A stretch of DNA of 64,000 nucleotides from Halolamina litorea (GTDB lineage: Archaea; Halobacteriota; Halobacteria; Halobacteriales; Haloferacaceae): the NCBI RefSeq assembly GCF_026616205.1, contig NZ_JANHGR010000001.1, positions 1,736,001 through 1,800,000 on the forward strand, read 5' to 3'. Below, in pieces: positions 3,084 through 64,000 of this stretch. How positions within the stretch are numbered: the stretch's first letter is position 1; each line of letters starts with the position of its first letter. A program made the translations under genes and the position numbers. A model generated the notes under the pieces. It made no database searches. It was not told the DNA's origin and was given only the letters and a program-made list of their open reading frames with translations.

Positions 3084-3101
3084 TCGCGCCCGCTGTGTCT
3101 C

Positions 3102-4331
3102 TTACTCCGTGCCCTCGAACGCGACGACGCGGCCGTCGCTGTAGATGACGTAGACCTCCGCCGCCCCGTCGTCGTCGGTATCGACGACCGACGGATAGGT
3201 GTAGATCGGAACGTTCCGCTCGTGGGTGCTCAGAACCGAGCCGTCCGTCGGATCGACGAGCGAGACCAGCCCGTCGTTGGTGACGGCAACCAGTTCCTCG
3301 CTGCCGTCGCCGTCCACGTCGCCCAGCGTCGGCGGCGGCGTCATCTGCACGTCGGCGCCGGTGAGCGTCGTGGTCCACTCGACGTCCCCGCTCGCCCCGT
3401 CGATGGCCCGGAGTTCCCCATCACGGGCGACGGCGTACACCTCCGCGGTCCCGTCCCCGTCACCGTCGCCGATGGCGTTGACCGCCGCGTAGCGGCCGAA
3501 ATCGTGCTGCCAGCGGCGCTCGCCCGTTGCGGCGTCGAACAGGCCGACCTGCCCGCCGGCCGTCGCCGTGGCGAACACCGTCTCGTTTGCCACCGTGCCG
3601 GCGCTGCTCCACAGCACCCGGCCGACGTCCGTACGCTGCCACGCCACCGAGCCGTTCCCCTCGAAGGCCGTCAGCCTGCCGCCGTCGGTGGCGACGAGTA
3701 GTTCGGTCGCACCGTCGGCGTCGGCGTCGACCGCCGCGGGTTGCCCCCACGCGCGGTCGCCCAGCCGTTGGCGCCAGCGAAGCGACCCGTTCCGGTCGAA
3801 GACGGAGAGCGCGCCCCGAACGTCCACGACCGCTACCTCCGCGGCCGGCCCGCCGACGAGGTCGGCGACGACGGGCTTCGAGTAGCCGTAGCTCGTGAGA
3901 GCCCCGCGGAGTTCCTCCCGACCGGTGGCGGCGTCGAGTGCGACCACGTCGCCCTCGGTCGTCGCGCCGAGCACCTCCGTCTCGCCGTCGCCGTCGAAGT
4001 CGGCGAGCGCCGGCGTCGCGATGGAGTGGACGGTACAGTTCGGCGCCGGCACGCGGTAGCGCCAGTCGGCGCCGCCGGTCCCGGCGTCGAGCGCGACCAG
4101 CGCGCAGGCCGTCGTGTCGGCCCGGCCGCTGATCGGCGCGTACACCATGCCGCGGCCGTCGACGACGCCGGCGGCGGGGGCGTGGTGGTTGGCCTTCACA
4201 TCGCGGCCCGTGTCGCTCACCCACGTGCGTTCGAGCGTCGGGCCGCCGCCCCCGGCCCCGAGCGCGAACGCGCCGGTGGCGCCGACGAGGACGAGCACGA
4301 GCGCCAACGTCGCCGCCGTCGCAGTACGCAT
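3102..4331 (-). CDS. Secreted FG-GAP/VCBS beta-propeller protein (paralog 1)
   Basis: A 409-residue protein with a Sec-type signal or membrane anchor (residues 1-25) followed by a propeller of repeating blades. Blades contain calcium-loop-like acidic motifs such as DFDGDGETEVL, GDGDGDGTAEVY, GDVDGDGSEELV and DTDDDGAAEVYV, alternating with PQQ-like W-containing strands (GGADWRYRVP, GDVEWTTTL). No enzymatic residues were identified, so the role is probably binding or surface structure. A TATA-like box (CTTTTTG near 4359) sits about 27 bases before the ATG, indicating a leaderless transcript. It is similar along its whole length to the protein at 4963-6216; a regulator gene lies between them, all on the same strand. 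Confidence 0.85.
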   Translation of the reverse strand: MRTATAATLALVLVLVGATGAFALGAGGGGPTLERTWVSDTGRDVKANHHAPAAGVVDGRGMVYAPISGRADTTACALVALDAGTGGADWRYRVPAPNCTVHSIATPALADFDGDGETEVLGATTEGDVVALDAATGREELRGALTSYGYSKPVVADLVGGPAAEVAVVDVRGALSVFDRNGSLRWRQRLGDRAWGQPAAVDADADGATELLVATDGGRLTAFEGNGSVAWQRTDVGRVLWSSAGTVANETVFATATAGGQVGLFDAATGERRWQHDFGRYAAVNAIGDGDGDGTAEVYAVARDGELRAIDGASGDVEWTTTLTGADVQMTPPPTLGDVDGDGSEELVAVTNDGLVSLVDPTDGSVLSTHERNVPIYTYPSVVDTDDDGAAEVYVIYSDGRVVAFEGTE

Positions 4332-4396
4332 TCAGTCTCGGTAGGTGCCTCGCGGGCAAAAAGGCGCCACTCCGCGCGCGGCGTTCGAGAGCCGCG

Positions 4397-4909
4397 CTAC
4401 TCCGAGAGGAGGCTGTCGACGAGCCGCGTGAACCGGTCGAGGAAGCGGTCCGGGATCGACGGCGACACCGTCCGGAGCAGTTCGCGGGTCCGCTCCGGGT
4501 CGGTCAGTTCGACGGTGACGCGGTTGCGCAGGTCCCGCTCCTTGCGCGCGACGTCCTCGGCGACGAGTCGGTCGAGGTGCCACTCGAGCGTGCTCCGGGC
4601 GACCCCGAGTTCCTCGACCAACTCAGTCGGCGTCGCACCGTCGTTCTCGAGCAGGGAGCCGATGATGCCGCGGGCAGTCTCACGCCGGAACAGCGCGAGC
4701 AGTCGGCGCTCCCAGGGCTCGAACTCCCGCGTGAAGAAGTGCGTCTTGCCGTACACGTCCTCGCGGACGAGATCGCCGTCGTCGACGAGCTTCCGGGTGT
4801 GGTACTGCACCTGCCCGGACGCGAAGTCGAGGTCCCGGACGAGGGCGCTGAAGTGGACTCCGGGGTTGCGCTCGACGTGCAGGGCAATGCGCGTTCTCGT
4901 CTCGGACAT
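4397..4909 (-). CDS. Tandem winged-helix transcriptional regulator
   Basis: A 170-residue DNA-binding protein with two winged-helix modules. The first spans about residues 5-65 (the segment HFSALVRDLDFASGQVQYHT is the recognition region) and the second about 80-140 (PTELVEELGVARSTLEWHLD). It resembles haloarchaeal MarR/ArsR-like regulators with duplicated domains. ATG 4909 is chosen because a TATA-like element (TACTAAACC, 4939-4947) lies about 30 bases upstream and the open frame beyond it overlaps the neighbouring gene. It lies between two FG-GAP paralogs, which are likely but unproven targets. Confidence 0.85.
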   Translation of the reverse strand: MSETRTRIALHVERNPGVHFSALVRDLDFASGQVQYHTRKLVDDGDLVREDVYGKTHFFTREFEPWERRLLALFRRETARGIIGSLLENDGATPTELVEELGVARSTLEWHLDRLVAEDVARKERDLRNRVTVELTDPERTRELLRTVSPSIPDRFLDRFTRLVDSLLSE

Positions 4910-4962
4910 CTGTTCGCTGAAGATTCGGTGGTCGACGGTACTAAACCCGACGGTTCCGGCGC

Positions 4963-6216
4963 CTACGCGTCGAGCGCGGCGACGCGCCCGTCGTTGTAGA
5001 TGACCAGCGCCTCCGGGTCGCCGTCGCCGTCGAAGTCCACGAGGGGGACGAACGTGTTGATCTTCTCCTCCCGGCTGTAGCTGTCGATCAGCTCCCCGGT
5101 GGTCGGATCGAGGACGCTGACCGAGCCGGTGTTGCTCGGCGCGACCAACTCGAGCGAGCCGTCGCCGTTCAGGTCGCCCAGCGAGGGCGGCGGCATCGGC
5201 GCGACCGGTTCGAGCGTGAGCGTCGTCGTCCACTCGACGCTCCCGTTGCGGGCGTTCAGGCTCCGAACCTTCCCGTCCCGGGCGGCGACGTAGGCCTCCG
5301 GAACACCGTCGTCGTCGCCGTCGCCGACCGCGTAGACGCTCGTCCCGCGGGCGTCGAAGCCACGGCGCCACTGGGTCTCCCCGGTCCGACCGTCTATCGC
5401 GTAGACGTTCCCCGAGAAGCCGGCGGCGACGAGTTCGACAGCCGGGTCGTCGTCGATCTGTGCCGGGACGATCCAGCGGAGCGTGAGGGCGTCACTGAGG
5501 TTTCGCTGCCAGCGGGTCGACCCATCCCCGTTCAGCATGACGACCGACCCCCCGGTCTTCCCGACGGCCAACTCCGGGTCGCCGTCGGCGTCGAAGTCCT
5601 CGACTCGGGGCTGTCGGACCCGCGCGTCCCCGACATCGCGGTTCCAAACCCGGCTACCGTCGGGGCGGAACACCGAGACGCCGCCGAGCAGGTCGACGAC
5701 GACCGTCTCGGGGGTCTCGTCGCCCGTGAGGTCGGCGACGACGGGCGTCGAGTAGCCGAAGGAGGTGAGGTTCCGGCGCAGTTCGACGCGGCCGTCGAGC
5801 GAGTAGGCGACGAACTCGCGGGCGCTCGTCGCCGCGAGGATTTCGGGCTCGCCGTCCCGGTCGTAGTCGGCGATCGTCGGGTCCGAGATCGAGTGGACGT
5901 TGCAGTCAGCCTCGGAGAGGGTGTCGGCCCACCGCTCCTCGCCGTCGCCGTCCAGGACGCTCATCCGACAGACCGTCCCCTGTCGGCTGTTGATGGGGAC
6001 CGCGATGTAGGACTCGCCGTCGATGGCCACCGCCGCGGGCGAGTGGTGGTTCGACTCCAAGGCCTCGGGCAGGCTACTGATCCACCGTTCGGCGAGTTCC
6101 ACCGGCTCCGCCGCGCCGGGACCGCTCGCCGCCGGGCCGTCGGTGAGGCCGTACGCACCGACGCCGGCGAAGACGAGCAACACAGCCACCAACAGGCCGA
6201 TCGTTCGTGGACGCAC
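4963..6216 (-). CDS. Secreted FG-GAP/VCBS beta-propeller protein (paralog 2)
   Basis: A 417-residue protein with an N-terminal hydrophobic signal or anchor (residues about 5-25, LLVAVLLVFAGVGAYGLTDG) and a propeller with acidic loops (DYDRDGEPEIL, DFDADGDPELAV, DLNGDGSLELVA, DFDGDGDPEALVIYNDG). Both this protein and the one at 3102-4331 share landmarks such as NHHSPAA/NHHAPAA, TVHSI/NVHSI and SYGYSKPVVADL/SFGYSTPVVADL, so they are duplicates. The start is GTG 6216; a T-rich promoter box near 6245 lies about 28 bases before it. Function unknown; probably extracellular. Confidence 0.84.
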   Translation of the reverse strand: MRPRTIGLLVAVLLVFAGVGAYGLTDGPAASGPGAAEPVELAERWISSLPEALESNHHSPAAVAIDGESYIAVPINSRQGTVCRMSVLDGDGEERWADTLSEADCNVHSISDPTIADYDRDGEPEILAATSAREFVAYSLDGRVELRRNLTSFGYSTPVVADLTGDETPETVVVDLLGGVSVFRPDGSRVWNRDVGDARVRQPRVEDFDADGDPELAVGKTGGSVVMLNGDGSTRWQRNLSDALTLRWIVPAQIDDDPAVELVAAGFSGNVYAIDGRTGETQWRRGFDARGTSVYAVGDGDDDGVPEAYVAARDGKVRSLNARNGSVEWTTTLTLEPVAPMPPPSLGDLNGDGSLELVAPSNTGSVSVLDPTTGELIDSYSREEKINTFVPLVDFDGDGDPEALVIYNDGRVAALDA

Positions 6217-53079: not shown

Positions 53080-54417
53080 TTACTCCTCGTCGTCGCTGCC
53101 ACTCATGCGTCGGGCAGCGGCCGCACCGGCGGCTCCGAGGCCGGCGATGGCCGAGAGGCCACCGAAGCCGGGGCCGCTGGTCTCGGTCGGCTCCTCGGTA
53201 GAGTCGTCGGGCTCGTCGGTCGGCTCCTCGGTGGGCTCCTCCGTCGGCTCGGCGGTCTCCGTCGAGAGACCCGTCACGTTGATCTCGCCGATCATCGTGG
53301 TCGGGTGGACCTCACAGACGTACTGAGTCGTCTCGGCCGACGCCGTGAACGTCATCGTCTGGGTCTGGTTCTGAGTGGTGACGTTCTCCGTGGACTGGAG
53401 GGACTCGTCGGAGTCGTTCCAGATCGCGATGTTGTGCGGGACGCCGTCGGCGTTGATCCAGCCGATGGTGTACTCCTGCCCCGCCTCCACTTCGAGCGTC
53501 GGGTTCGTCGTCCCCTCGATGGAGGACGGAGCGAGGCCGCCCCAGCCCTCGGTGATGCCGTCGAGGACGAAGTCGGCTTCCTCCTCAAGCGAGGCGATCT
53601 GTTCCTCGCGGCTCGGACCCTCGGCCTCCTCGACGGTGACGGGGCCGCGGTAGGTGTCCGAGGCGTCCTCGGCGATGTACGCGGAGATCTCGGACGTCGC
53701 CGTGAACGTCACGTCGGACTCGGTGCCGTGATCGTTGACGTAGCCCGTGGCGGCGACCGCCTCGTCGTTGTCGTCGACGAAGGCGAGGTTGAGGTCGTCA
53801 CGCTCCGCACCGTAGACCAGGGCCGCGTCGTACTCCTGGTTCGCGGTCATCGTGATCTCGGGGTTCACCTGGCCCTCGATGTCCGAGGGGGTGATGCCGA
53901 CGAAGCCGTCGGCGTGAGTCACGAAGCCGAAGTCGTAGTCCGACTTGATGTCAGGGTAGTCGGTGTTGTAGTCGCCGCCGCCGCCGCTCTGGTCGCCCAC
54001 GACGATCTGGCCACGCATGGCCGACGGGTGGGGCTCACAGTAGTACTCGGCCATCTCCTCGGTGGCGGTGAACTCGATGCTCGTCGAGTCGCCTTCCGTG
54101 GAGACGGTGTCAGACCGGTGGAGGACGTCGCCGTCACCGTTGATGATAACGAGGTTGTGAGTGAGGCCGTCACCGTTCTCCCACTCGATCTTGTACTGAC
54201 CGCCGACCTCGGACATCTCGAGGGTCGGGTTCTGGGTTCCGGCGATGCTCTCCGGTTCGAGACCTTCCCAGCCGCTTCGGACGCCGCTCAGCTTGAACGT
54301 CTGGACCGTCTCCTGGGCAGCAGCCGAGCCCATGGCACCGGACATGCCGAGGCCAGCGCCAGCGACACCGAGATACTGCACGAACCGACGACGGGAACTC
54401 TCAGGGACTTCGCTCAT
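53080..54417 (-). CDS. Exported three-domain cupredoxin with PGF-CTERM anchor
   Basis: A 445-residue surface protein with a Tat signal (SSRRRFVQYLG). Three plastocyanin-like domains follow. Domain 1 (36-140) has blue-copper ligands His87, Cys127, His130 and Met134. Domain 2 (155-262) has lost all of them. Domain 3 (280-383) has His328, Cys368, His371 and Met375. Then comes a Thr/Glu/Pro stalk (385-412) and a C-terminal tripartite anchor starting SGPGFGG with helix and RR. It should carry electrons outside the membrane. A TTTTATG box near 54450 places transcription at about 54423, only six bases upstream. Confidence 0.9.
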   Translation of the reverse strand: MSEVPESSRRRFVQYLGVAGAGLGMSGAMGSAAAQETVQTFKLSGVRSGWEGLEPESIAGTQNPTLEMSEVGGQYKIEWENGDGLTHNLVIINGDGDVLHRSDTVSTEGDSTSIEFTATEEMAEYYCEPHPSAMRGQIVVGDQSGGGGDYNTDYPDIKSDYDFGFVTHADGFVGITPSDIEGQVNPEITMTANQEYDAALVYGAERDDLNLAFVDDNDEAVAATGYVNDHGTESDVTFTATSEISAYIAEDASDTYRGPVTVEEAEGPSREEQIASLEEEADFVLDGITEGWGGLAPSSIEGTTNPTLEVEAGQEYTIGWINADGVPHNIAIWNDSDESLQSTENVTTQNQTQTMTFTASAETTQYVCEVHPTTMIGEINVTGLSTETAEPTEEPTEEPTDEPDDSTEEPTETSGPGFGGLSAIAGLGAAGAAAARRMSGSDDEE

Positions 54418-54545
54418 GTAACGCTCTACGGTAGCTACTCCATACATAAAAACTCACCACTATCGGGTTAGAGAGGCCCTCAACCGTGGATTTATCAATT
54501 CTTAAGCATCAGCGTTGAATACGGGTCTACGAGGGTTGAAGTAGC

Positions 54546-54624: not shown

Positions 54625-54933
54625 ATGTTCAGGAAACGAACCGGGTACGAGACGGTCATCGTCAAGTCGGACCGACTCGCCCGTGGCCCGGAGACGGAGA
54701 TGCCCGAGATAGACACGGCCATCGACGCCGGACAGGACGACAAGATGTTCATCCCCGCGTGGGAGGACGTCAGGGAGGAGATAACCCCCGAGGACCACGA
54801 GGAGGGGACCCACGTCGCGACGATCCACTACGACATGGATGCAAAGAGCTACGAGCTCGAGTACTACGTCGAGACCGAATCCGAAAAAGAGGAAGCCGAA
54901 GCCGAAGACGAGGGCGAAGCGGACGCCCAGTAA
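54625..54933 (+). CDS. Small acidic hypothetical protein
   Basis: A 102-residue protein without membrane segments or known motifs. Residues 1-80 predict beta strands and helices (ETVIVKSDRLARGPETEMPE; EEGTHVATIHYDMDAKSYEL), and residues 80-102 are a nearly pure Glu/Asp/Ala tail. ATG 54625 follows a GATTCTT element near 54598 by about 27 bases. It is convergent with the DUF7282-like protein gene, separated by seven bases. Function unknown. Confidence 0.65.
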   Translation: MFRKRTGYETVIVKSDRLARGPETEMPEIDTAIDAGQDDKMFIPAWEDVREEITPEDHEEGTHVATIHYDMDAKSYELEYYVETESEKEEAEAEDEGEADAQ

Positions 54934-54939
54934 CGGGCG

Positions 54940-55839
54940 TTACTCCTCGTCGTCGCTGCTGCCGCCGAACCGTTTTGCCGCTGCCGCCGCACCGACCGCT
55001 GCGCCGGCGATGGTCGTCATGATGCCGAAGCCGGGACCGCTGGTCTCGGTGGGCTCGGGCTCCTCCGTGGCGTTGGCCGCGGAGTTGAGGTCGTCGACCT
55101 CGCTGCGGAGCGTCTCGACCTGTCCTTCGAGCTCGGAGATACGCTCGCTCTGGTCCTCGGAGGACCCGCGAAGCTCCTCGATCTCGGACTGGAGCGACGA
55201 GATCTGCTCCTCGTTCTGCGTGATCTGGGCCTCGACGGTCCCGGGGTTGAAGTCGGCCTGCTGCAGGTAGGCCTCACCCATCACGACCTCGTCGGCCTCG
55301 GTCGGGTGCTGGTTCTCGTTCTGGTAGCCGTACCGGTTGTCGGCTTCACCGGGGGAGAGGTTCGTGAACTCACCGTTCCCGTCGGTGTCCCGGTGCATCC
55401 AGACCTGGTAGAGCTTCCCTTCCATCTCTTCGGCCGTGTGGTGGTCGAAGTCGAGGGGCTCGTCCAGCGTGATCGTGACGTTCTCGTGGGTCCCCGGTTC
55501 GAGGAACTCCGTCGTCCCGAGGGTCATGTTGTCGATGGCCGCCTGCTCGGAGGGCATCGTCTCGCCGACCTCGGGCCACACGCGCTCGTGGGGGTTGACG
55601 GGGTCGATCAGGGAGATGAACCCACCGTCGGGCATCGTCGCCGTCTCGATGTTGATCTCGAACCCGTAGGTTTCCTGTGCCGGGATGACGATCTCTGCCT
55701 CCCCGGATTCCTGTGCCGCCACCGAGCCGGTCGCGCTCGCGCCAGTCGCGGCGGTCGCAACACCGGCTGCGGTGAGTTTGATGACGGTTCGCCGAAGCAG
55801 CTTCGGCGAGCCCTCGGATTCTGCTTGTGTTTCTGCCAT
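54940..55839 (-). CDS. Tat-exported DUF7282-like protein with coiled coil and PGF-CTERM anchor
   Basis: A 299-residue surface protein. Residues 1-43 are a Tat signal (LLRRTVIKLTAAG...VAAQ). Residues 48-195 carry a DUF7282-like beta domain (VIPAQETYGFEINIETATMP; EFLEPGTHENVTITLDEPLD; VWMHRDTDGNGEF). Residues 205-255 form a heptad coiled coil (QISSLQSEIEELRGSS, ERISELEGQVETLRSEVDDL). Residues 268-299 are the anchor, beginning SGPGFG. It begins four bases downstream of the PQQ enzyme stop, so they share an operon and are likely partners. Confidence 0.85.
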   Translation of the reverse strand: MAETQAESEGSPKLLRRTVIKLTAAGVATAATGASATGSVAAQESGEAEIVIPAQETYGFEINIETATMPDGGFISLIDPVNPHERVWPEVGETMPSEQAAIDNMTLGTTEFLEPGTHENVTITLDEPLDFDHHTAEEMEGKLYQVWMHRDTDGNGEFTNLSPGEADNRYGYQNENQHPTEADEVVMGEAYLQQADFNPGTVEAQITQNEEQISSLQSEIEELRGSSEDQSERISELEGQVETLRSEVDDLNSAANATEEPEPTETSGPGFGIMTTIAGAAVGAAAAAKRFGGSSDDEE

Positions 55840-55843
55840 TGTC

Positions 55844-57607
55844 TTAGGCGGAGTATTCCGCGGAGTAGACGTTCGTGACACCCGATTCCTGAATGGAGAC
55901 GGCGACGTACACCTTCCCCTCGGCGGGGTCGCGCCAGATGGCGGGACCGCCACCGGAGCCGCCGCCCACGTCGTCGGTCCAGACCTTCTCGCCGGTCTCG
56001 GTGTCGTAGGCGATGAACTCGCCGCCGCTGCCGTCGCCGGCACCGACGAAGGTGATACCCGTCGAGGTCGTCGCGGAGCCGCCGCCGCCACGGAAGTTGT
56101 GGTTGCGCCAGTCCTGCCACTTCACCTCGCCGGTGACGGGGTCGAGGCCGGTGATGACGCCCTCGAAGCCGTTGTACCAGTCGTGCTCGGTCGCATCGGC
56201 GCCGATCGAGGCGAAGATGTAACCGAGGTAGCTCTCACCGGGCTCGTAGGCGATCGGCTCCCAGCCGATCTGCCACGGCACGTTGGTCGCGGTGACGACC
56301 ATCGTCTGGCTCTCGGGGTGGTAGGACGGTACCTGACCACTGCTGGAGCCACCGCCTGCATAGGGGTTGTTCCAGACTGCCTCGCCGTCCTCGGGCTCAC
56401 GCGGGGGCAGCACCCACATGTTGTGCTGCTCGGTGAAGTTGTCCGAGCGCTGGATCAGCTTGCCGGACTCGGCGTCGACGGTGAACACCCATGGCACCTT
56501 CGGCGGCCACGAGACCATGCGGCGTTCCTCGCCGTTGATCTCGCCCATGTAGGTGATCGGCGGCGACGGGGAGTCGTAGTCCCAGTAGTCGTGGGGCGAG
56601 TCCTGGTGGTGCCACTGGTACTCGCCGGTCTCGATGTCCAGGGCGACCTTCCCACACGTGTAGGGGTTGAGCCCCGGCCGGACGGTCCCGTACCACGGGC
56701 CACCGTTCGCCGCGGGAACGATGATGTTGTTGTTGTCGACGTCGATCGCCGCCGACGCCCACGCGGTACCGCCACCGTGCTTCCAGGAGTCGCCGACCCA
56801 CGCGTCCTGCGGAGTCATGTTGACGCGCCACTGGGGCTCGCCGTCGAGCGAGACGGCGTCCAGCCAGCCGGTGGTCCCGTACTCGCCACCGAAGCTGCCC
56901 TTCATGATCATGCCGTCCTTGATCATCGGCGGGAACGAGGAGCTGACACCGCGCGAGCGGGTCCAGTCGATCTCCTCGTGGATGAGGCCCTCGGCGGCCT
57001 CGCCGCGGTAGGCGCAGGCGCCGTTGAAGTACCACTCCTCCTCGCCGGTATAGCGGTTCATCGCCAGCACACCGAGGTCGAGGGTGCTGATGATCACGAG
57101 GTCGCCGTGGACGGCGGCCCCACGCTGTGCGGGGGCGGTCGCCTGCGACGCGCCGGCGGCCGGCGTGTAGACGTGCGACCAGAGGATCTCGCCGGTTCGG
57201 GCGTTGACCGCGAAGACCTCGTCGGGCCCGAACGTCGTGTACATGATCGGCGGCTCGCCGTCGACGATGATCGGCGCGTTGTGAGTGTCGGTGACCGGCG
57301 GCTCGGCGGTGACCGGCATCTCCGGGTACTCCTGGGACCACTCGAGGGTCAGGTCCCCGATGTTGTCCATGTCGAGCTCGTCGCCCGGGTAGAGACGCTG
57401 GTTGTCGTAGCCGCCACCGTAGACCAGCCAGTTGTCGGGGTTGTCCCCCGTCTGCATCAGGTCTTCCTGGGTGATCTCCCGCTCCGGGATGACGCCGGTG
57501 TTGTACTGTTCGACCGTCGATTCGCCGGGCTTCTCGTCGTACGGGCCATCGAGCAGGACCTGAATGTCCTCGAGGTGGGCCCGCGGGTTCTCTTGCATTA
57601 CGTTCAT
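55844..57607 (-). CDS. PQQ-dependent alcohol-dehydrogenase-type propeller with lanthanide-type metal site
   Basis: A 587-residue eight-bladed propeller of the quinoprotein alcohol dehydrogenase family. NWLVYGGGYDNQRLYPGD (residue 59 on) is the usual start, after an extra 55 residues. Compared with methanol dehydrogenases, metal ligand Glu242 is in SFGGEYGTTG, Asn301 in AANGGPW, catalytic Asp343 and the additional Asp345 in SPHDYWDYD, PQQ-stacking Trp283 in HGGGTAW and Lys370 at the base Arg position. The vicinal Cys pair near PQQ is missing. No signal peptide is present, which is odd for this family. Confidence 0.85.
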   Translation of the reverse strand: MNVMQENPRAHLEDIQVLLDGPYDEKPGESTVEQYNTGVIPEREITQEDLMQTGDNPDNWLVYGGGYDNQRLYPGDELDMDNIGDLTLEWSQEYPEMPVTAEPPVTDTHNAPIIVDGEPPIMYTTFGPDEVFAVNARTGEILWSHVYTPAAGASQATAPAQRGAAVHGDLVIISTLDLGVLAMNRYTGEEEWYFNGACAYRGEAAEGLIHEEIDWTRSRGVSSSFPPMIKDGMIMKGSFGGEYGTTGWLDAVSLDGEPQWRVNMTPQDAWVGDSWKHGGGTAWASAAIDVDNNNIIVPAANGGPWYGTVRPGLNPYTCGKVALDIETGEYQWHHQDSPHDYWDYDSPSPPITYMGEINGEERRMVSWPPKVPWVFTVDAESGKLIQRSDNFTEQHNMWVLPPREPEDGEAVWNNPYAGGGSSSGQVPSYHPESQTMVVTATNVPWQIGWEPIAYEPGESYLGYIFASIGADATEHDWYNGFEGVITGLDPVTGEVKWQDWRNHNFRGGGGSATTSTGITFVGAGDGSGGEFIAYDTETGEKVWTDDVGGGSGGGPAIWRDPAEGKVYVAVSIQESGVTNVYSAEYSA

Positions 57608-58572
57608 TATTCGAAGCTCATGTTGTCGAAGTCGACTTCGTTCAGGGGCTTGCGATCCTCGTCGTTGATCCGGGCGACGTCGTCAGCGACCAGTTCCTGG
57701 CCGATGAACATGATCGCCTGGCTGGCGATCAGCAGCGTCGCCAGGTCCTCGTCGGAGATCGAGCCACCTGCCAGGTCCCGTGCGGCGTCACCGAGCAGGT
57801 AGACGCCGGCAAGCATCGACTTGGTGTCCCAGACACCCTTCTCGATGATGTCCTCGGTGAGGATGTACTCGTACTGCCAGAGGCGCCAGTCGAGGCCGTC
57901 GATCCAGAGCAGCGACCCGGCGACTGCGCGCTTGGGCAGCGGCGAGACGTAGGACGCGACGACCTTCTCCTCGGTCTCGGAGGGCTCCTCGGCCTGCGGG
58001 TACTCCTCGGCCTTGCCCCACCAGGAGAGGCGGTTGCTGGAGCTGACGATGTTGGTCAGCAGCGACACCTGCTCGTCCTCGGGGAAGCCGAGGTCGCCGA
58101 GCGTGTCACCGAGCTCGTCGATGGTGAGCAGCTGTCGGGTCGTGTCGGCGATGTGCTCCGGCGAGAAGCGCGGCATGTGTGCCTCCGCGCTCTCGTAGAA
58201 GCCGGTCTCGGTGAGGTGCTCGTCGATGATCCACGCCGCGTCCGTGAGGTCGGCGTAGGGGGTCTCGCCCTTGCGGGGGACGCCCATCTCCCGAAGGTCC
58301 TCGAAGTCGTCGAAAGCTCCGGCGAGCTCGTCGAGGGCCGACGAGAGGAGCTCCTCGTCGAGGGGTTCGTCCATGTCCTCGCGGATCGCCTGACCGATCT
58401 CAGCGAACTCCTCGCTGGGCATGCTCTCGACGACCGTCCGAAGGTCAGAGAGCGAGGGCTGGTCAGGTGCCGTTGTGGTGGATGCGTCCATCCGATCTAC
58501 GAATCGCTCGTAGCTTGCGGTGTTCACCACACCGTAGCTATACTTCTCGCGATTATTGGTCCCGTATTCCAT
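57607..58572 (-). CDS. Unknown helical protein heading the PQQ enzyme operon
   Basis: A 321-residue acidic, mainly helical protein with no recognised domain, signal peptide or clear membrane segment. Trp/Tyr-rich patches are notable (RLSWWGKAEEYP; LLWIDGLDWRLWQYEYIL). The TATA-like box TTAAGTA (58598-58604) is 29 bases before ATG 58572, supporting the long start over ATG 58491. It overlaps the PQQ gene by one base, so the two are translationally linked. It might be a chaperone, cofactor or export partner (inference only). Confidence 0.75.
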   Translation of the reverse strand: MEYGTNNREKYSYGVVNTASYERFVDRMDASTTTAPDQPSLSDLRTVVESMPSEEFAEIGQAIREDMDEPLDEELLSSALDELAGAFDDFEDLREMGVPRKGETPYADLTDAAWIIDEHLTETGFYESAEAHMPRFSPEHIADTTRQLLTIDELGDTLGDLGFPEDEQVSLLTNIVSSSNRLSWWGKAEEYPQAEEPSETEEKVVASYVSPLPKRAVAGSLLWIDGLDWRLWQYEYILTEDIIEKGVWDTKSMLAGVYLLGDAARDLAGGSISDEDLATLLIASQAIMFIGQELVADDVARINDEDRKPLNEVDFDNMSFE

Positions 58573-58788: not shown

Positions 58789-60036
58789 TCACTCCCCGAC
58801 CGGAACCCCGCTGAAGACGACGATGGCGATCACCCAGTACGCGACGTAGAGGCCGCCGAGCGCGTAGCCGTGCCAGCGCTCCATCTTCCCCGTCGAGAGG
58901 AAGTAGCCAGCGAGGGCAGTGACGATGATCATCGCCGGCAAGTGGAACGTGAGCACCGTCGAACTGACCGTCACGTCCCCGAAGAACGCGACGATGCCGA
59001 TGTTGCCCGTCACGGAGAACAGGACGCTCCCGATCACGTTCCCGACGCCGATCTCGGGGAGACCACGGCGAACCGGCTCGATGGTCAGCATGATGTCCTC
59101 GAACGTGAGGATGAGCGTGAGTATCGTCGCCCCGAAGAGTGTTCCCTCGATGCCGAACGACTCCGTCACCGCCTCCGAGCCGCCTTCGAGCAGCATCGCC
59201 GCGAAGACGATCCCCACGAGCGCGAGCACGGCGAGGCCGAGCCACGCGCCGCCGGAGTCGGCGAAGCGGCCGAGGTAGCGTTCCTCGGGGATGCTGTCGA
59301 GTTCGGCCACGTTCTTCGTCCCGCCGTCGCCGCGGAGCGCCTTGCCGATCTCGGTATCGCGGAACACCGGGATGTCGCGTTGGCTCTCGCGGTAGATCAG
59401 GTAGCCGAACGTACCGAAGAAGAACAGCACGAGCACGAGCCCGTAGCCGAACGTGAGCGTTCCCGTGACCGCGAGGGGGATGATCAGGAGCGGCCCGAGC
59501 ACGAACAGCGCGATGTAGTCACGCGGGAGGTCGACCGGGAACGGTTGGATGATGGCGGCGACGGCGAGCGTGACGCCCGTGATCGCCAGCCCCGTCCCGA
59601 GCGCCGTCCCGAGGGCGGCGCCCTCCATCCCGCCGGCGGAGAAGACGAGCGCGAGCACGGTGTCGTCGAACTCGAACCCGGTGAAGATGATCGCCAGCGC
59701 GAACAGGGACAGTCGCAACTGCAGCGACGCCCGCGCGAGGTAACTGATCAGCTTCTCGGTCGAAGCGATCAGTAAGCCGATCCCGAACAGCAACACCAAC
59801 AGGGTCCCGATCGTCCCTTGGGACTCGATGAACCCCTCTATCGCCCCCTCGATCCCTCCTTCCTCCTCCTCACCCTCCTCGCCCGCTTCGTCCTCCTGGG
59901 CGCTGGCGACGCCAACGGCGCCGCCGGCGCCGTCGACGCCCGCAAGGACCGCCATCGCCGGCGACGCGACGGAGAGTAGCAGAACCGCAACTAACGCGAC
60001 AACAGTGATTCGTCGTTTCACAACTGCTCCCCTCAT
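58789..60036 (-). CDS. Na/Ca exchanger-family protein with signal peptide
   Basis: A 415-residue membrane antiporter. A cleavable-looking signal (KRRITVVALVAVLLLSVASP) precedes an acidic segment (residues 46-63) and about ten helices. The two alpha-repeat-like sites are IIFTGFEFDDTVLALVFSAG with GTALGTGLAITG, and LTLILTFEDIMLTIEPVRRG with GNVIGSVLFSVTGN. It would exchange a divalent or trivalent cation against Na+ or H+. ATG 60036 is listed, but the TATA-like box CTATTAAG (60047-60054) fits better with GTG 60021, five codons later. Confidence 0.82.
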   Translation of the reverse strand: MRGAVVKRRITVVALVAVLLLSVASPAMAVLAGVDGAGGAVGVASAQEDEAGEEGEEEEGGIEGAIEGFIESQGTIGTLLVLLFGIGLLIASTEKLISYLARASLQLRLSLFALAIIFTGFEFDDTVLALVFSAGGMEGAALGTALGTGLAITGVTLAVAAIIQPFPVDLPRDYIALFVLGPLLIIPLAVTGTLTFGYGLVLVLFFFGTFGYLIYRESQRDIPVFRDTEIGKALRGDGGTKNVAELDSIPEERYLGRFADSGGAWLGLAVLALVGIVFAAMLLEGGSEAVTESFGIEGTLFGATILTLILTFEDIMLTIEPVRRGLPEIGVGNVIGSVLFSVTGNIGIVAFFGDVTVSSTVLTFHLPAMIIVTALAGYFLSTGKMERWHGYALGGLYVAYWVIAIVVFSGVPVGE

Positions 60037-60088
60037 TCTCCCTCCCCTATTAAGTTCGGAATCGGGTACCGTCTACCCTTGAACGATC

Positions 60089-60424
60089 CTACACGCGATC
60101 GCGGTCGGCGTCGAGCGTGGCGGTTCCGGTGTCGTCGCGCCCGTCGTCGCTCTCGTCGACGGTGTCGGCGTGGAGCAGGAACAGCGAGTCTGGCTCGGGA
60201 GAGGCCCGGAGTTCGATGCGCTTGGTCAGTCGGTAGTACTTGCGCTGGCTGATGTGGTAGCTCTCGACGATGCCTTCCTCCTCCAGCGTCGAGAGGTGGT
60301 GGACCGCGGTCTTACCGTCCATCCCGACGTTCTCTGCCAGTTCCGAGACGTATCGTGGCTCGCTGACCAGCTCCCGGAGGATCTTGAGACGAGCCTTGCT
60401 GCCGAGAACGTCGAAGAGGGACAT
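60089..60424 (-). CDS. ArsR-like winged-helix regulator
   Basis: A 111-residue regulator with one winged-helix domain in residues 1-75. The helix-turn-helix is in YVSELAENVGMDGKTAVHHL and the wing in GIVESYHISQRKYYRLTKRI, followed by a disordered acidic tail. It resembles haloarchaeal ArsR/MarR-like proteins. GTG 60427 could also be used. It shares a very short (53-base) divergent region with the amphi-Trp protein and is next to the exchanger gene. Confidence 0.85.
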   Translation of the reverse strand: MSLFDVLGSKARLKILRELVSEPRYVSELAENVGMDGKTAVHHLSTLEEEGIVESYHISQRKYYRLTKRIELRASPEPDSLFLLHADTVDESDDGRDDTGTATLDADRDRV

Positions 60425-60447
60425 CACGAATGAGTAGTTGTGCCATC

Positions 60448-60456
60448 CTTTTTAGC
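60448..60456. promoter_or_regulatory. Single TATA-like box serving two divergent genes
   Basis: CTTTTTAGC is centred about 26 bases before ATG 60478 on the plus strand and about 27 bases before ATG 60424 on the minus strand. No other TATA-like element exists in the 53-base interval, so one box may direct leaderless transcripts both ways. Confidence 0.5.
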
Positions 60457-60477
60457 TCTCCCCATCCGACCCCCGCT

Positions 60478-60768
60478 ATGGCCGACCTACCCGGAACCGA
60501 CGACGAGCCGCGCCGGATCACTGAGGGCTACTTCGAGCGGGAGGTTCGACTCTCCCGCTCGGCGACGGCGACGTTCCTCCGGGACCTCGCCGACCAGATC
60601 GAGGCCGAGCCGCGGCTGACCATCTCGACGGAGGAGTGGGAGATCCCCTTCGAGTTCGACGAGCCGATCGAGGTTGAAGTGGAGTTCGTCGGCGAGAAAC
60701 ACGGCCAGTTGGAGGTGGAGTTGGAGTTCGAACACTCCCCCGCCGACGACGGCATCGACGTGAGCTGA
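60478..60768 (+). CDS. Amphi-Trp domain protein
   Basis: A 96-residue acidic protein matching the amphi-Trp family: the helix EVRLSRSATATFLRDLADQI followed by alternating strands (EWEIPFEFDEPIEVEVEFVG, HGQLEVELEFEH). These small domains are widespread in haloarchaea; biochemical role unknown. ATG 60478 is fixed by the promoter spacing; the longer open frame from 60430 is not conserved-looking. Confidence 0.8.
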   Translation: MADLPGTDDEPRRITEGYFEREVRLSRSATATFLRDLADQIEAEPRLTISTEEWEIPFEFDEPIEVEVEFVGEKHGQLEVELEFEHSPADDGIDVS

Positions 60769-60860: not shown

Positions 60861-61916
60861 CTATTCGTCGCGCGTGCGGTACGCCCGGAGCAGCGCGCCG
60901 GCGCCGATGGCCGAGAGCGCGCCGGCCGCAGTGAAGCCGGGACCGCTGGCTTCGGTCGGCTGGTCCTGCTCCTCGGGGTCCGCGGAGGTGACCTGTGCGG
61001 GCGTCCCCTCCGGCGTCGCCGTCGCCTCGGCCGTGGCCGTCCCGTCGCCGCTGCCGCCGCTGGTGAACGCCTCGTAGGAGATCGAACCCTGCTCGACGAT
61101 GTCGCTCGACGCGGGAAGCTCGCCGTCCTCGGGGTTGCTGCCCTCGGCGGGGCCGCCTGGCTCGCCGACGACGAACCGACCGATCATGCCCAGCGTCCGG
61201 TGGGGCATGCAGTAGTAGTCGTAGGTCCCCTCGGTCTCGAAGGTGAGGTCGTGGGAGCCCTCGCTGATGATCTCGGTGTCGAACGTGTCGGCCCCCTCGG
61301 GGATGCGCTCGTCGTAGGAGACGACGTTGTGGGAGCCCGAGTCGATGACCCAGCTGATGGTGTCGCCGGGCTGGACGTGGAGCCCGATCGGGTCGAAGTA
61401 GAAGCTGCCGTCGTCGCTGGAGACCATCTTGACCTCGTGGGTCTGGGGTTCGCCGGCGGGTTCCGGCGTCGGCGTCGCCGTCGAGGCGCCGCCGCCCGTG
61501 ATCTCCACGTCGCCGCGCATCGAACTGGGGTGGGCCGCACAGTAGTAGGAGGCCATCCCGGCCTCGGCCGTGAACTGGACCGTCTGACTCTCGCCCTGTG
61601 AGGAGACGAACTCCGACTCGACGAGGGCGTTGCCGTCGGCGTCCTCGATGACGACGTTGTGGGGGGCGCCGTCGCCGTTCTCCCAGTAGAACTCGTAGGT
61701 CTGTCCGGCTTCGAGGCTGAGCGTCGGGTTGGTCGTTCCCTCGATCGAACTGGGGGCGAGACCCTCCCAACCGGCGGTGACGCCGTTGAACTCGAACCGC
61801 TCAGTGACCTCGGTCTGCGCGCTCGCGCTGCCCGCGACCACCGACGTGGCGACGACGCCCGCGCCGATCGTTCGCAGGAGAGACCGTCGGGTCGCTCCGT
61901 TCGCAGGGGTATCCAT
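60861..61916 (-). CDS. Exported two-domain cupredoxin with PGF-CTERM anchor
   Basis: A 351-residue surface protein with Tat signal (ATRRSLLRTIGAG). Domain 1 (35-140) has ligands His86, Cys126, His129 and Met133. Domain 2 (158-250) is halocyanin-like with His196, Cys236, His239 and Met244. A Thr/Glu/Pro linker precedes the anchor (SGPGFTAAGAL). Domain 1 shares the motif GWEGLAPSSIEGTTNPTL with the protein at 53080-54417. It could accept electrons from the PQQ enzyme and pass them to the respiratory chain (inference). A CTAAAAC box near 61945 gives a leaderless start. Confidence 0.9.
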   Translation of the reverse strand: MDTPANGATRRSLLRTIGAGVVATSVVAGSASAQTEVTERFEFNGVTAGWEGLAPSSIEGTTNPTLSLEAGQTYEFYWENGDGAPHNVVIEDADGNALVESEFVSSQGESQTVQFTAEAGMASYYCAAHPSSMRGDVEITGGGASTATPTPEPAGEPQTHEVKMVSSDDGSFYFDPIGLHVQPGDTISWVIDSGSHNVVSYDERIPEGADTFDTEIISEGSHDLTFETEGTYDYYCMPHRTLGMIGRFVVGEPGGPAEGSNPEDGELPASSDIVEQGSISYEAFTSGGSGDGTATAEATATPEGTPAQVTSADPEEQDQPTEASGPGFTAAGALSAIGAGALLRAYRTRDE

Positions 61917-62097: not shown

Positions 62098-63135
62098 ATG
62101 TCGCATACTCGGCGGTCAGTTCTCGCAGCGGTCGGTTCCGGCGTGGCCCTCACCGCGGGCTGTCTCGGCGCTCCCGGTTCGGATGGGACCCAGAGCGTCA
62201 GTCTGTTGCTCAACTGGACACCCAACGGTCTTCACGTCCCCTACTACGCGGCCAAACAGCAGGGGTTCTACGAGGAAGCCGGCGTCGAGGTGACCGAGAT
62301 CGTGAGCGGCGACGGCTCGGACTTCTCGGCCCGACAGGCCGGCCGTGGCAACAACGAGTTCGGCGTCACGAGCAGCGATCAGGTACTCCTGACGGCCGGC
62401 GGCGGGATCGACGTCCAGTCGGTCGGCGTGATGATGCAGCAGTCGCCCAACGTCGTCTTCTCGACGCGGGAGGCGTTCGGCGGCGAACTCAACGACCCCG
62501 AACAGCTCGCCGGCAAGACCGTCGGCACCGGCCCGGGGATGGTCCGGATGCTGACCGAACTCTACCTCGAAGCCACCGGCGTCCGGAGCGAGGTCGAACT
62601 GGTGGACACGGGCTACGACACGGTCCAGCGCCTGCTGGCCGGCGAAGTCGACGCCGCCGGCGGCGTCTTCGGCGACGCCATCGACGCCCGGTATCAGGGT
62701 GCGACCGTCGACTCCCTCGGCGTCGCCACCGAGGTCCCCTCCTACGGTCACGTGCTGGCGACGGCACCCTCCTTCGCCGAGGAGAACCCCGAGACCGTCA
62801 ACGCGTTCCTCGAGGGGACGGCCCGGGGGGCCGCCTGGGCGACCAACAACCGCGAAGCCGGCGTCGACGCCCTCGTCGAGGCCAACGGGAGCATCAGTGA
62901 GGTTCGCGAGCAGGCTCGGGCGACGTGGGACACGCTCGCAGACGAGCACATCGTCGGCCCGGCAGTCGAGGAGCACGGCTGGGGCTGGCACAGTTCCGAG
63001 CCCTGGACGACGATGGCCGACGCCCTGGAGAGCGCCGACTCGGGCGAGGTCGCCGACCCGAGCACGGTCTGGACGAACGACCACCTCGACACCGACGCCG
63101 AGTACATCGGCGACTACACCGAACAGATCCAGTGA
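62098..63135 (+). CDS. ABC transporter substrate-binding lipoprotein, ThiY/NMT1-like
   Basis: A 345-residue lipoprotein: Tat start (HTRRSVLAAVGSG) and lipobox TAGC (Cys at 22). The mature part opens SLLLNWTPNGLHVPYYAAKQ, a hallmark of NMT1/ThiY-like proteins that bind the pyrimidine moiety of thiamin or similar ring compounds, and includes VGTGPGMVRMLTELYLEA. Other possibilities are riboflavin, nitrate or sulfonate. Its stop overlaps the permease start. No ATPase gene is within the window. Confidence 0.87.
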   Translation: MSHTRRSVLAAVGSGVALTAGCLGAPGSDGTQSVSLLLNWTPNGLHVPYYAAKQQGFYEEAGVEVTEIVSGDGSDFSARQAGRGNNEFGVTSSDQVLLTAGGGIDVQSVGVMMQQSPNVVFSTREAFGGELNDPEQLAGKTVGTGPGMVRMLTELYLEATGVRSEVELVDTGYDTVQRLLAGEVDAAGGVFGDAIDARYQGATVDSLGVATEVPSYGHVLATAPSFAEENPETVNAFLEGTARGAAWATNNREAGVDALVEANGSISEVREQARATWDTLADEHIVGPAVEEHGWGWHSSEPWTTMADALESADSGEVADPSTVWTNDHLDTDAEYIGDYTEQIQ

Positions 63136-63927: not shown

Positions 63928-64000
63928 TTACGCCATCCGCCGACGCACTCGCGTCCCGAGTACCCCTACGGCGCCGTAGAGCGAGAACCCGACGACGAAC
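63928..64000 (-). CDS. C-terminal end of a convergent membrane-protein gene (partial)
   Basis: The minus strand from the window edge reads FVVGFSLYGAVGVLGTRVRR and then RMA and a TAA stop at 63928-63930. Only 23 residues are visible; the hydrophobic segment followed by Arg residues suggests the last helix of an inner-membrane protein. It could be another subunit of the neighbouring transporter, but this cannot be decided. Confidence 0.55.
   Translation of the reverse strand, partial: FVVGFSLYGAVGVLGTRVRRRMA

Follow-up and report, generated by a model that had tools for sequence, protein, structure and literature searches.

Lanthanide-dependent enzymes are established in bacteria, and their archaeal counterparts have been inferred from sequence only. 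The published metal-ligand sets of the bacterial XoxF and PedH are identical to each other and to the Glu/Asn/Asp/Asp set discussed below (PMC11845868). The D-x-D motif is commonly read in the field as a sign of lanthanide use, and in the enzymes tested its Asp is reported to be essential; the same motif also occurs in the membrane glucose dehydrogenase (mGDH), an enzyme that forms complexes with Ca, Mg, Zn and Sr (PMC11996626). An archaeal D-x-D quinoprotein is not new by itself, because such proteins have already been reported in heterotrophic marine Thaumarchaeota (PMC7300363). In the open-licence literature, we found no haloarchaeal lanthanide or PQQ alcohol dehydrogenases of the family described here. 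The new content is a haloarchaeal module consisting of a signal-less D-x-D quinoprotein, an obligate helical partner, copper-protein neighbors and an ABC transporter, in a class with no detectable PQQ synthesis, and this setting tells more than the motif does. The reading that we prefer, and to which we give an even chance, is that of a two-subunit, lanthanide-capable alcohol dehydrogenase that would run on scavenged PQQ, hitchhike through the Tat pathway and be coupled to halocyanin.

The window, that is, the whole 64,000-nucleotide stretch of Halolamina litorea DNA analyzed here, contains a quinoprotein alcohol dehydrogenase gene of subfamily A (55844..57607, minus strand), encoding a PQQ-type beta-propeller of 587 aa with neither a signal peptide nor a Cys-Cys pair (its cysteines are limited to C198 and C318). 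Family search with the sequence assigned this protein to the methanol/ethanol dehydrogenase superfamily of quinoproteins: the best NCBIfam match, over the full length, was TIGR03075 (PQQ-dependent methanol/ethanol dehydrogenase), with 252.5 bits, which does not reach the cut-off of 480 (a subfamily B member scored 392.3 bits against the same cut-off), and the Pfam PQQ match scored 141.9 bits. Among solved structures, PedH (6zcv) was the best match by sequence (1.4e-42), the sequence identity to PedH/ExaF being about 25-29%. The AlphaFold2 model of the enzyme (mean pLDDT 83.4, pTM 0.89, with block means of 64-83, that is, moderate confidence, around the ligands and active-site loops) confirms, at the level of a prediction, the eight-bladed propeller fold of PQQ alcohol dehydrogenases (ADHs). 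VIA-align ranked PedH 6zcw first (Z 43.0, rmsd 1.9 A over 497 residues), followed by 1yiq (41.1), XoxF 6dam (41.0) and the Ca-type ExaA (40.0), and Foldseek retrieved 6zcv with an E value of 7.7e-42. Because the gaps in Z score between PedH, 1yiq, XoxF and ExaA are small, the fold by itself does not choose the metal.

The preliminary description of this DNA had proposed a lanthanide-type site built from Glu242, Asn301, Asp343 and Asp345. In the translation of the open reading frame, the four residues are found at these places, with codons that span 56573-56884 on the minus strand (56882..56884, 56705..56707, 56579..56581 and 56573..56575, respectively). Upon alignment of the enzyme with XoxF (6oc5, 6dam, 4mae), MxaF (2d0v), ExaA (1flg), PedH (6zcw) and quinohemoprotein ADH (1yiq), all four fall on metal ligands, corresponding to E172, N256, D299 and D301 of the Ce-XoxF 4MAE and to the ligands of PedH; Glu242 and Asn301 are predicted metal ligands, Asp343 is the predicted catalytic base and ligand, and Asp345 is the extra Asp typical of lanthanide-type sites. 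In the same alignment, G241 occupies the position of a Gly in XoxF and PedH that is Ala in MxaF, and W283, R162 and S222 align with positions of the PQQ site; the R326 position is Lys, as in quinohemoprotein ADH, and the columns of the Cys pair contain A156 and T157. The second D-x-D position is Asp in all compared lanthanide enzymes with structural proof and A, S or T in the compared Ca2+ ADHs. Each of the 44 distinct haloarchaeal homologues from subfamilies A and B that were read has the tetrad, most of these homologues having come from a motif-independent whole-protein search and the remainder from a motif-selecting scan; in an 18-member alignment, 15% of the columns are invariant, including all four ligand columns along with W283, R162 and K370. 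Judging from these sequences, the ligand motif is not a chance occurrence.

The choice of the metal is a separate matter. Three paralogues in the same genome retain the Asn and D-Y-D but have the metal Glu replaced by G, Y or D, so that D-x-D alone is no proof of a working site; nor does it prove lanthanide use, because mGDH has it too. The sequence supports a D-x-D site that permits lanthanides, and the use of lanthanides only in part. Accordingly, the initial proposal stands with respect to the pocket (D-x-D, Gly before Glu, PedH as the best fold) but not with respect to La/Ce/Nd being used instead of calcium. We put the chances that a lanthanide is the native metal at about half. Calcium is far more available in brines than free lanthanides. 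Somewhat short of even, although substantial, is the probability that the same enzyme natively employs Ca2+ or is metal-promiscuous, with D-x-D being an ancestral trait that the fold has retained: the range of metals complexed by mGDH (PMC11996626), the retention of D-x-D in the paralogues after the loss of the metal Glu, which argues that the motif alone is under no strict lanthanide constraint, and the recurrence of a Na+/Ca2+ exchanger gene as a neighbor are all compatible with such an enzyme, whereas the presence of Gly241 and D345, as in all compared structurally proven lanthanide enzymes, against A, S or T in the compared Ca2+ ADHs, is not what it would lead one to expect.

Whole-protein search of 292 Halobacteria genomes detected the enzyme in 50 genomes from 18 genera. 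The initial attribution to haloarchaea is correct. There are two haloarchaeal subfamilies, A, which includes the 587-aa enzyme and lacks the Cys pair, and B, which has it. In the phylogenetic tree, the haloarchaeal sequences form one clade (support 100/100) apart from both the bacterial relatives and the seven references, which grouped separately, and none of them branched within the clade of XoxF or of PedH in this tree; the bacterial relatives had been collected with a search pattern containing WDYD, which deprives their D-x-D of evidential weight. By descent, as far as the tree tells, the enzyme is neither XoxF nor PedH, and, given the separation of the haloarchaeal clade from the references, it would be XoxF/PedH-like in its working only. 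According to the tree, the Cys pair disappeared where subfamily A begins; the nearest tree neighbor of this subfamily, L142 (the same as L042), comes from the genus of the window and keeps the pair. The absence of the vicinal Cys pair, previously taken as a divergence of this enzyme from the bacterial ones, is thus valid for subfamily A but does not extend to haloarchaea in general: because the sister subfamily keeps the pair, the loss is local.

Immediately upstream of the enzyme gene, and overlapping its start by one base (TAATG stop/start overlap), lies the partner subunit gene (57607..58572, minus strand). Its 321-aa product has no significant match in Pfam or NCBIfam, and a Pfam search of the partner family yielded only weak TAT_signal matches, in three members. 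The model of the partner is all-helical (pLDDT 83.9, pTM 0.84), with no usable PDB match (the best Foldseek E value was 0.26 and the best VIA Z score 6.6, to helical proteins). A profile of the partner detects it in all 50 genomes with the enzyme compared to one of the 242 others, and that one is a fragment (Fisher p 7e-56); furthermore, all 77 compared partner genes adjoin the enzyme, at a distance of no more than 700 bp from the enzyme match. The partner gene is an obligate companion of the enzyme.

The partner also bears on how the enzyme could leave the cell. Inspection of the N-termini by eye revealed no signal in any of the A or B enzymes inspected. Among 33 partners, 20 carry an RRxFL Tat-like motif near the N-terminus (for example, DRREFLKALGVIAGG), so that at these loci, by sequence, a signal-less enzyme is paired with a Tat-motif partner; most of the partner orthologues have the form RRxFLK, which is missing in the partner encoded in the window, one of the 13 without a Tat-like motif. 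The best support for Tat hitchhiking comes from three paralogous quinoproteins of the same genome (L127, L128 and L129, at C2:452710, C1:1153929 and C1:233779, respectively): each has a PGF-CTERM-like C-terminal tail, which implies an extracytoplasmic location, yet no N-terminal signal, and each sits behind a Tat-motif partner.

The simple hitchhiker model does not explain export of the window enzyme, given that its own partner lacks the Tat motif. Separated from the enzyme gene by 4 bp, the third gene in the putative operon (54940..55839, minus strand) encodes a DUF7282 surface protein with a Tat signal (LLRRTVIKL...) and a PGF-CTERM-like tail; at this position, two other loci (L130 and L132) have a fusion of DUF7282 with a blue-copper domain. 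In 8 of the 13 loci in which the partner lacks the Tat motif, the window among them, the enzyme gene is directly followed, at a spacing of -3 to 53 bp, by a gene for a Tat-signal copper or DUF7282 protein; this holds for none of the 20 loci with a Tat-motif partner. This pattern suggests a carrier swap, whereby the Tat signal would have moved to the downstream gene. The partner changes its Tat-motif state at least 2 times on the tree, and because only two independent losses underlie the contrast, it cannot reach significance, so that the swap is a lead. Alternatively, in the lineages without the Tat motif (the clade of the window and the Natrialba/Halalkalicoccus clade), the quinoprotein could be cytoplasmic and fed by an imported cofactor, as might be surmised from the 13 of 33 loci where neither subunit has an export signal, 5 of which have no convincing Tat gene after that of the enzyme either; considering the Tat copper or DUF7282 genes directly downstream in the other 8, with the same reservation as to the two losses, we deem this unlikely and retain export as the preferred reading.

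Any such enzyme needs a cofactor. In 292 Halobacteria genomes, PqqC (TIGR02111) produced no match above the cut-off and a single chance-level match, whereas in the positive control, PqqC was recovered in three bacterial genomes; hence PQQ would be scavenged, or another cofactor would be used. Scavenging of PQQ without synthesis is documented in Gram-negative bacteria (PMC12124388). Two matches in the H. litorea genome were dismissed as indications of PQQ synthesis: that to PqqE (67.5 bits) is below the cut-off and unspecific, being found also in 14 of 14 control genomes, and the PqqB-like one (113.7 bits) is below the cut-off as well, from a family that also has matches in 6 control genomes. 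Around the PqqB-like match there is no PQQ cluster; BamB-like Tat proteins are encoded there. Within the window, PQQ_2 (BamB-like) repeat matches are scattered over several frames of 3096-5952 (minus strand), one of them continuing across a TAA; these may be the remains of a decayed or frameshifted gene.

The lack of PqqC, with PqqE and PqqB matching only below the cut-off, together with the loss of the Cys pair and a match of 186 bits to TIGR04528, would also be compatible with an "empty" quinoprotein, in which the propeller would have abandoned PQQ and taken on a different role, as is suggested for Acidobacteria by the NCBIfam name of TIGR04528. We regard this as quite improbable: the TIGR04528 score of the 587-aa enzyme (186.4 bits) is far from reaching the cut-off of 650 and is lower than that of TIGR03075, and the metal ligands, W283, R162 and K370 are all invariant, in contrast to the paralogues in the same genome, which did lose the Glu. 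A PQQ-using enzyme thus remains our preferred reading.

A candidate route for the supply is an NMT1/THI5-type ABC transporter, of which the substrate-binding lipoprotein is encoded at 62098..63135 (plus strand), followed by the permease and ATPase genes at 63928 and beyond the window. This binding protein co-occurs with the enzyme across the class: relatives (E <= 1e-60) were detected in 44 genomes, 42 of the 50 with the enzyme versus 2 of the 242 without it (p 4e-40, for genomes that are related), and at the genus level, the ratio is 17 of 18 against 0 of 59. Among the closer orthologues (>= 50% identity), 32 of 33 are encoded within 15 kb of the enzyme gene; two genomes of the same genus as the window have the transporter and no enzyme. 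The best PDB sequence match of the binding protein is a formyl-aminopyrimidine binder, and its PDB relatives bind thiamine pyrimidines. A relationship with PqqT was considered and discarded, this bacterial PQQ binder not being among the PDB sequence matches. We infer that PQQ or the product of the alcohol are candidate ligands. Near subfamily B enzymes (L045:16130-20236, L049, L051), signal-less NMT1/THI5-like proteins recur, accompanied by a cupin and by aldehyde ferredoxin oxidoreductase genes.

Copper proteins flank the enzyme operon on both sides. A blue-copper protein with Tat and PGF-CTERM features and two or more halocyanin-like domains is encoded at 53080..54447 (minus strand), and a Tat-type halocyanin-like protein with two blue-copper domains, the likely electron acceptor, at 60861..61916 (minus strand); 4 of the 15 Copper-bind domain matches in this genome fall in these two genes. 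Halocyanin is the one-electron carrier of haloarchaea (PMC8305020). Blue-copper genes are close by in about two thirds of the enzyme loci, usually within 4 kb, and the copper proteins flanking most loci have Tat or lipobox signals; at several subfamily B loci, no copper gene was found near the enzyme, so this link is common but not universal. In subfamily A, at least one copper neighbor is fused to a glucose/sorbosone (GSDH) quinoprotein: at L133:9364-11460, the convergent neighbor of the enzyme is a large Tat protein that combines a blue-copper domain with GSDH, and L134-L141 have similarly long copper-protein neighbors (the family scan was run on L133 only). Between the two operon-flanking copper genes of the window, a Na+/Ca2+ exchanger family membrane protein (PF01699; 58789..60036, minus strand), an ArsR-type winged-helix regulator (60089..60427, minus strand) and a small acidic protein (60430..60768, plus strand) are conserved neighbors, the exchanger in several loci; the three (58789-60768) are repeatedly found as a group close to the enzyme, in subfamilies A and B alike. 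The gap that separates the DUF7282 gene from the copper-protein gene contains, in the opposite orientation, a 102-aa open reading frame without a family match (54625-54933, plus strand).

Taken as a whole, the enzyme would be the catalytic subunit of a two-subunit haloarchaeal quinoprotein alcohol dehydrogenase with a lanthanide-capable site, in which the propeller would bind PQQ and a metal held by E242, N301, D343 and D345, with D343 acting as the catalytic base. The cell presumably does not make PQQ but imports it from the brine. For most of the family, the signal-less enzyme would be folded and loaded in the cytoplasm and exported by Tat on the helical partner; in the lineage of the window, whose partner no longer has the Tat motif, the role of carrier may have passed to the Tat surface protein encoded directly downstream. 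Outside the cell, electrons from reduced PQQ would pass to the neighboring halocyanins and on to the terminal oxidase. A bolder version, which we advance tentatively, is that haloarchaea possess a lanthanide system of their own: a Tat-exported ADH, loaded in the cytoplasm with scavenged PQQ or lanthanide-PQQ, an undescribed helical partner, halocyanin in place of cytochrome c and a dedicated NMT1-type importer. Should the enzyme be lanthanide-active, it would be a first for haloarchaea, in relatives of organisms that are amenable to genetics. The metal aside, the locus bears on how a class without detectable PqqC uses PQQ-type enzymes and on whether a signal-less quinoprotein leaves the cell on its partner subunit, and it provides a lead to the function of both the unnamed helical partner family and the family of the NMT1-type binding protein.

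Compared with the known systems, the acidobacterial empty quinoprotein group A (TIGR04528) is a related propeller family, from which the haloarchaeal enzyme differs in its intact active site. The quinoproteins of marine heterotrophic Thaumarchaeota are likewise archaeal, with D-Y-D and no Cys pair, and a blue copper protein has been proposed as a possible acceptor; these genomes encode a PQQ synthase, and signal peptides are present on the majority of the quinoproteins, unlike in the haloarchaeal enzyme (PMC7300363). In this comparison, made by description only, the portion of that report used here describes no partner subunit of the haloarchaeal kind (PMC7300363). XoxF (4MAE, 6DAM, 6OC5) shares the ligand tetrad and the D-Y/F-D motif, but the structure alignment gives only 23-25% identity, and the haloarchaeal enzyme lacks the Cys pair and has Pro for Thr259, with neither methanol use nor a cytochrome c partner being indicated for it. 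PedH/ExaF (6ZCV, 6ZCW), the nearest solved structure by both sequence and fold, has in common with it the eight-bladed propeller, the four metal ligands, the Gly before Glu and the Pro at the 259 position, whereas the haloarchaeal enzyme stands out by the absence of the Cys pair and signal peptide, Lys for Arg at 326, its place outside the reference clade in the tree, the helical partner and the copper-protein neighbors.
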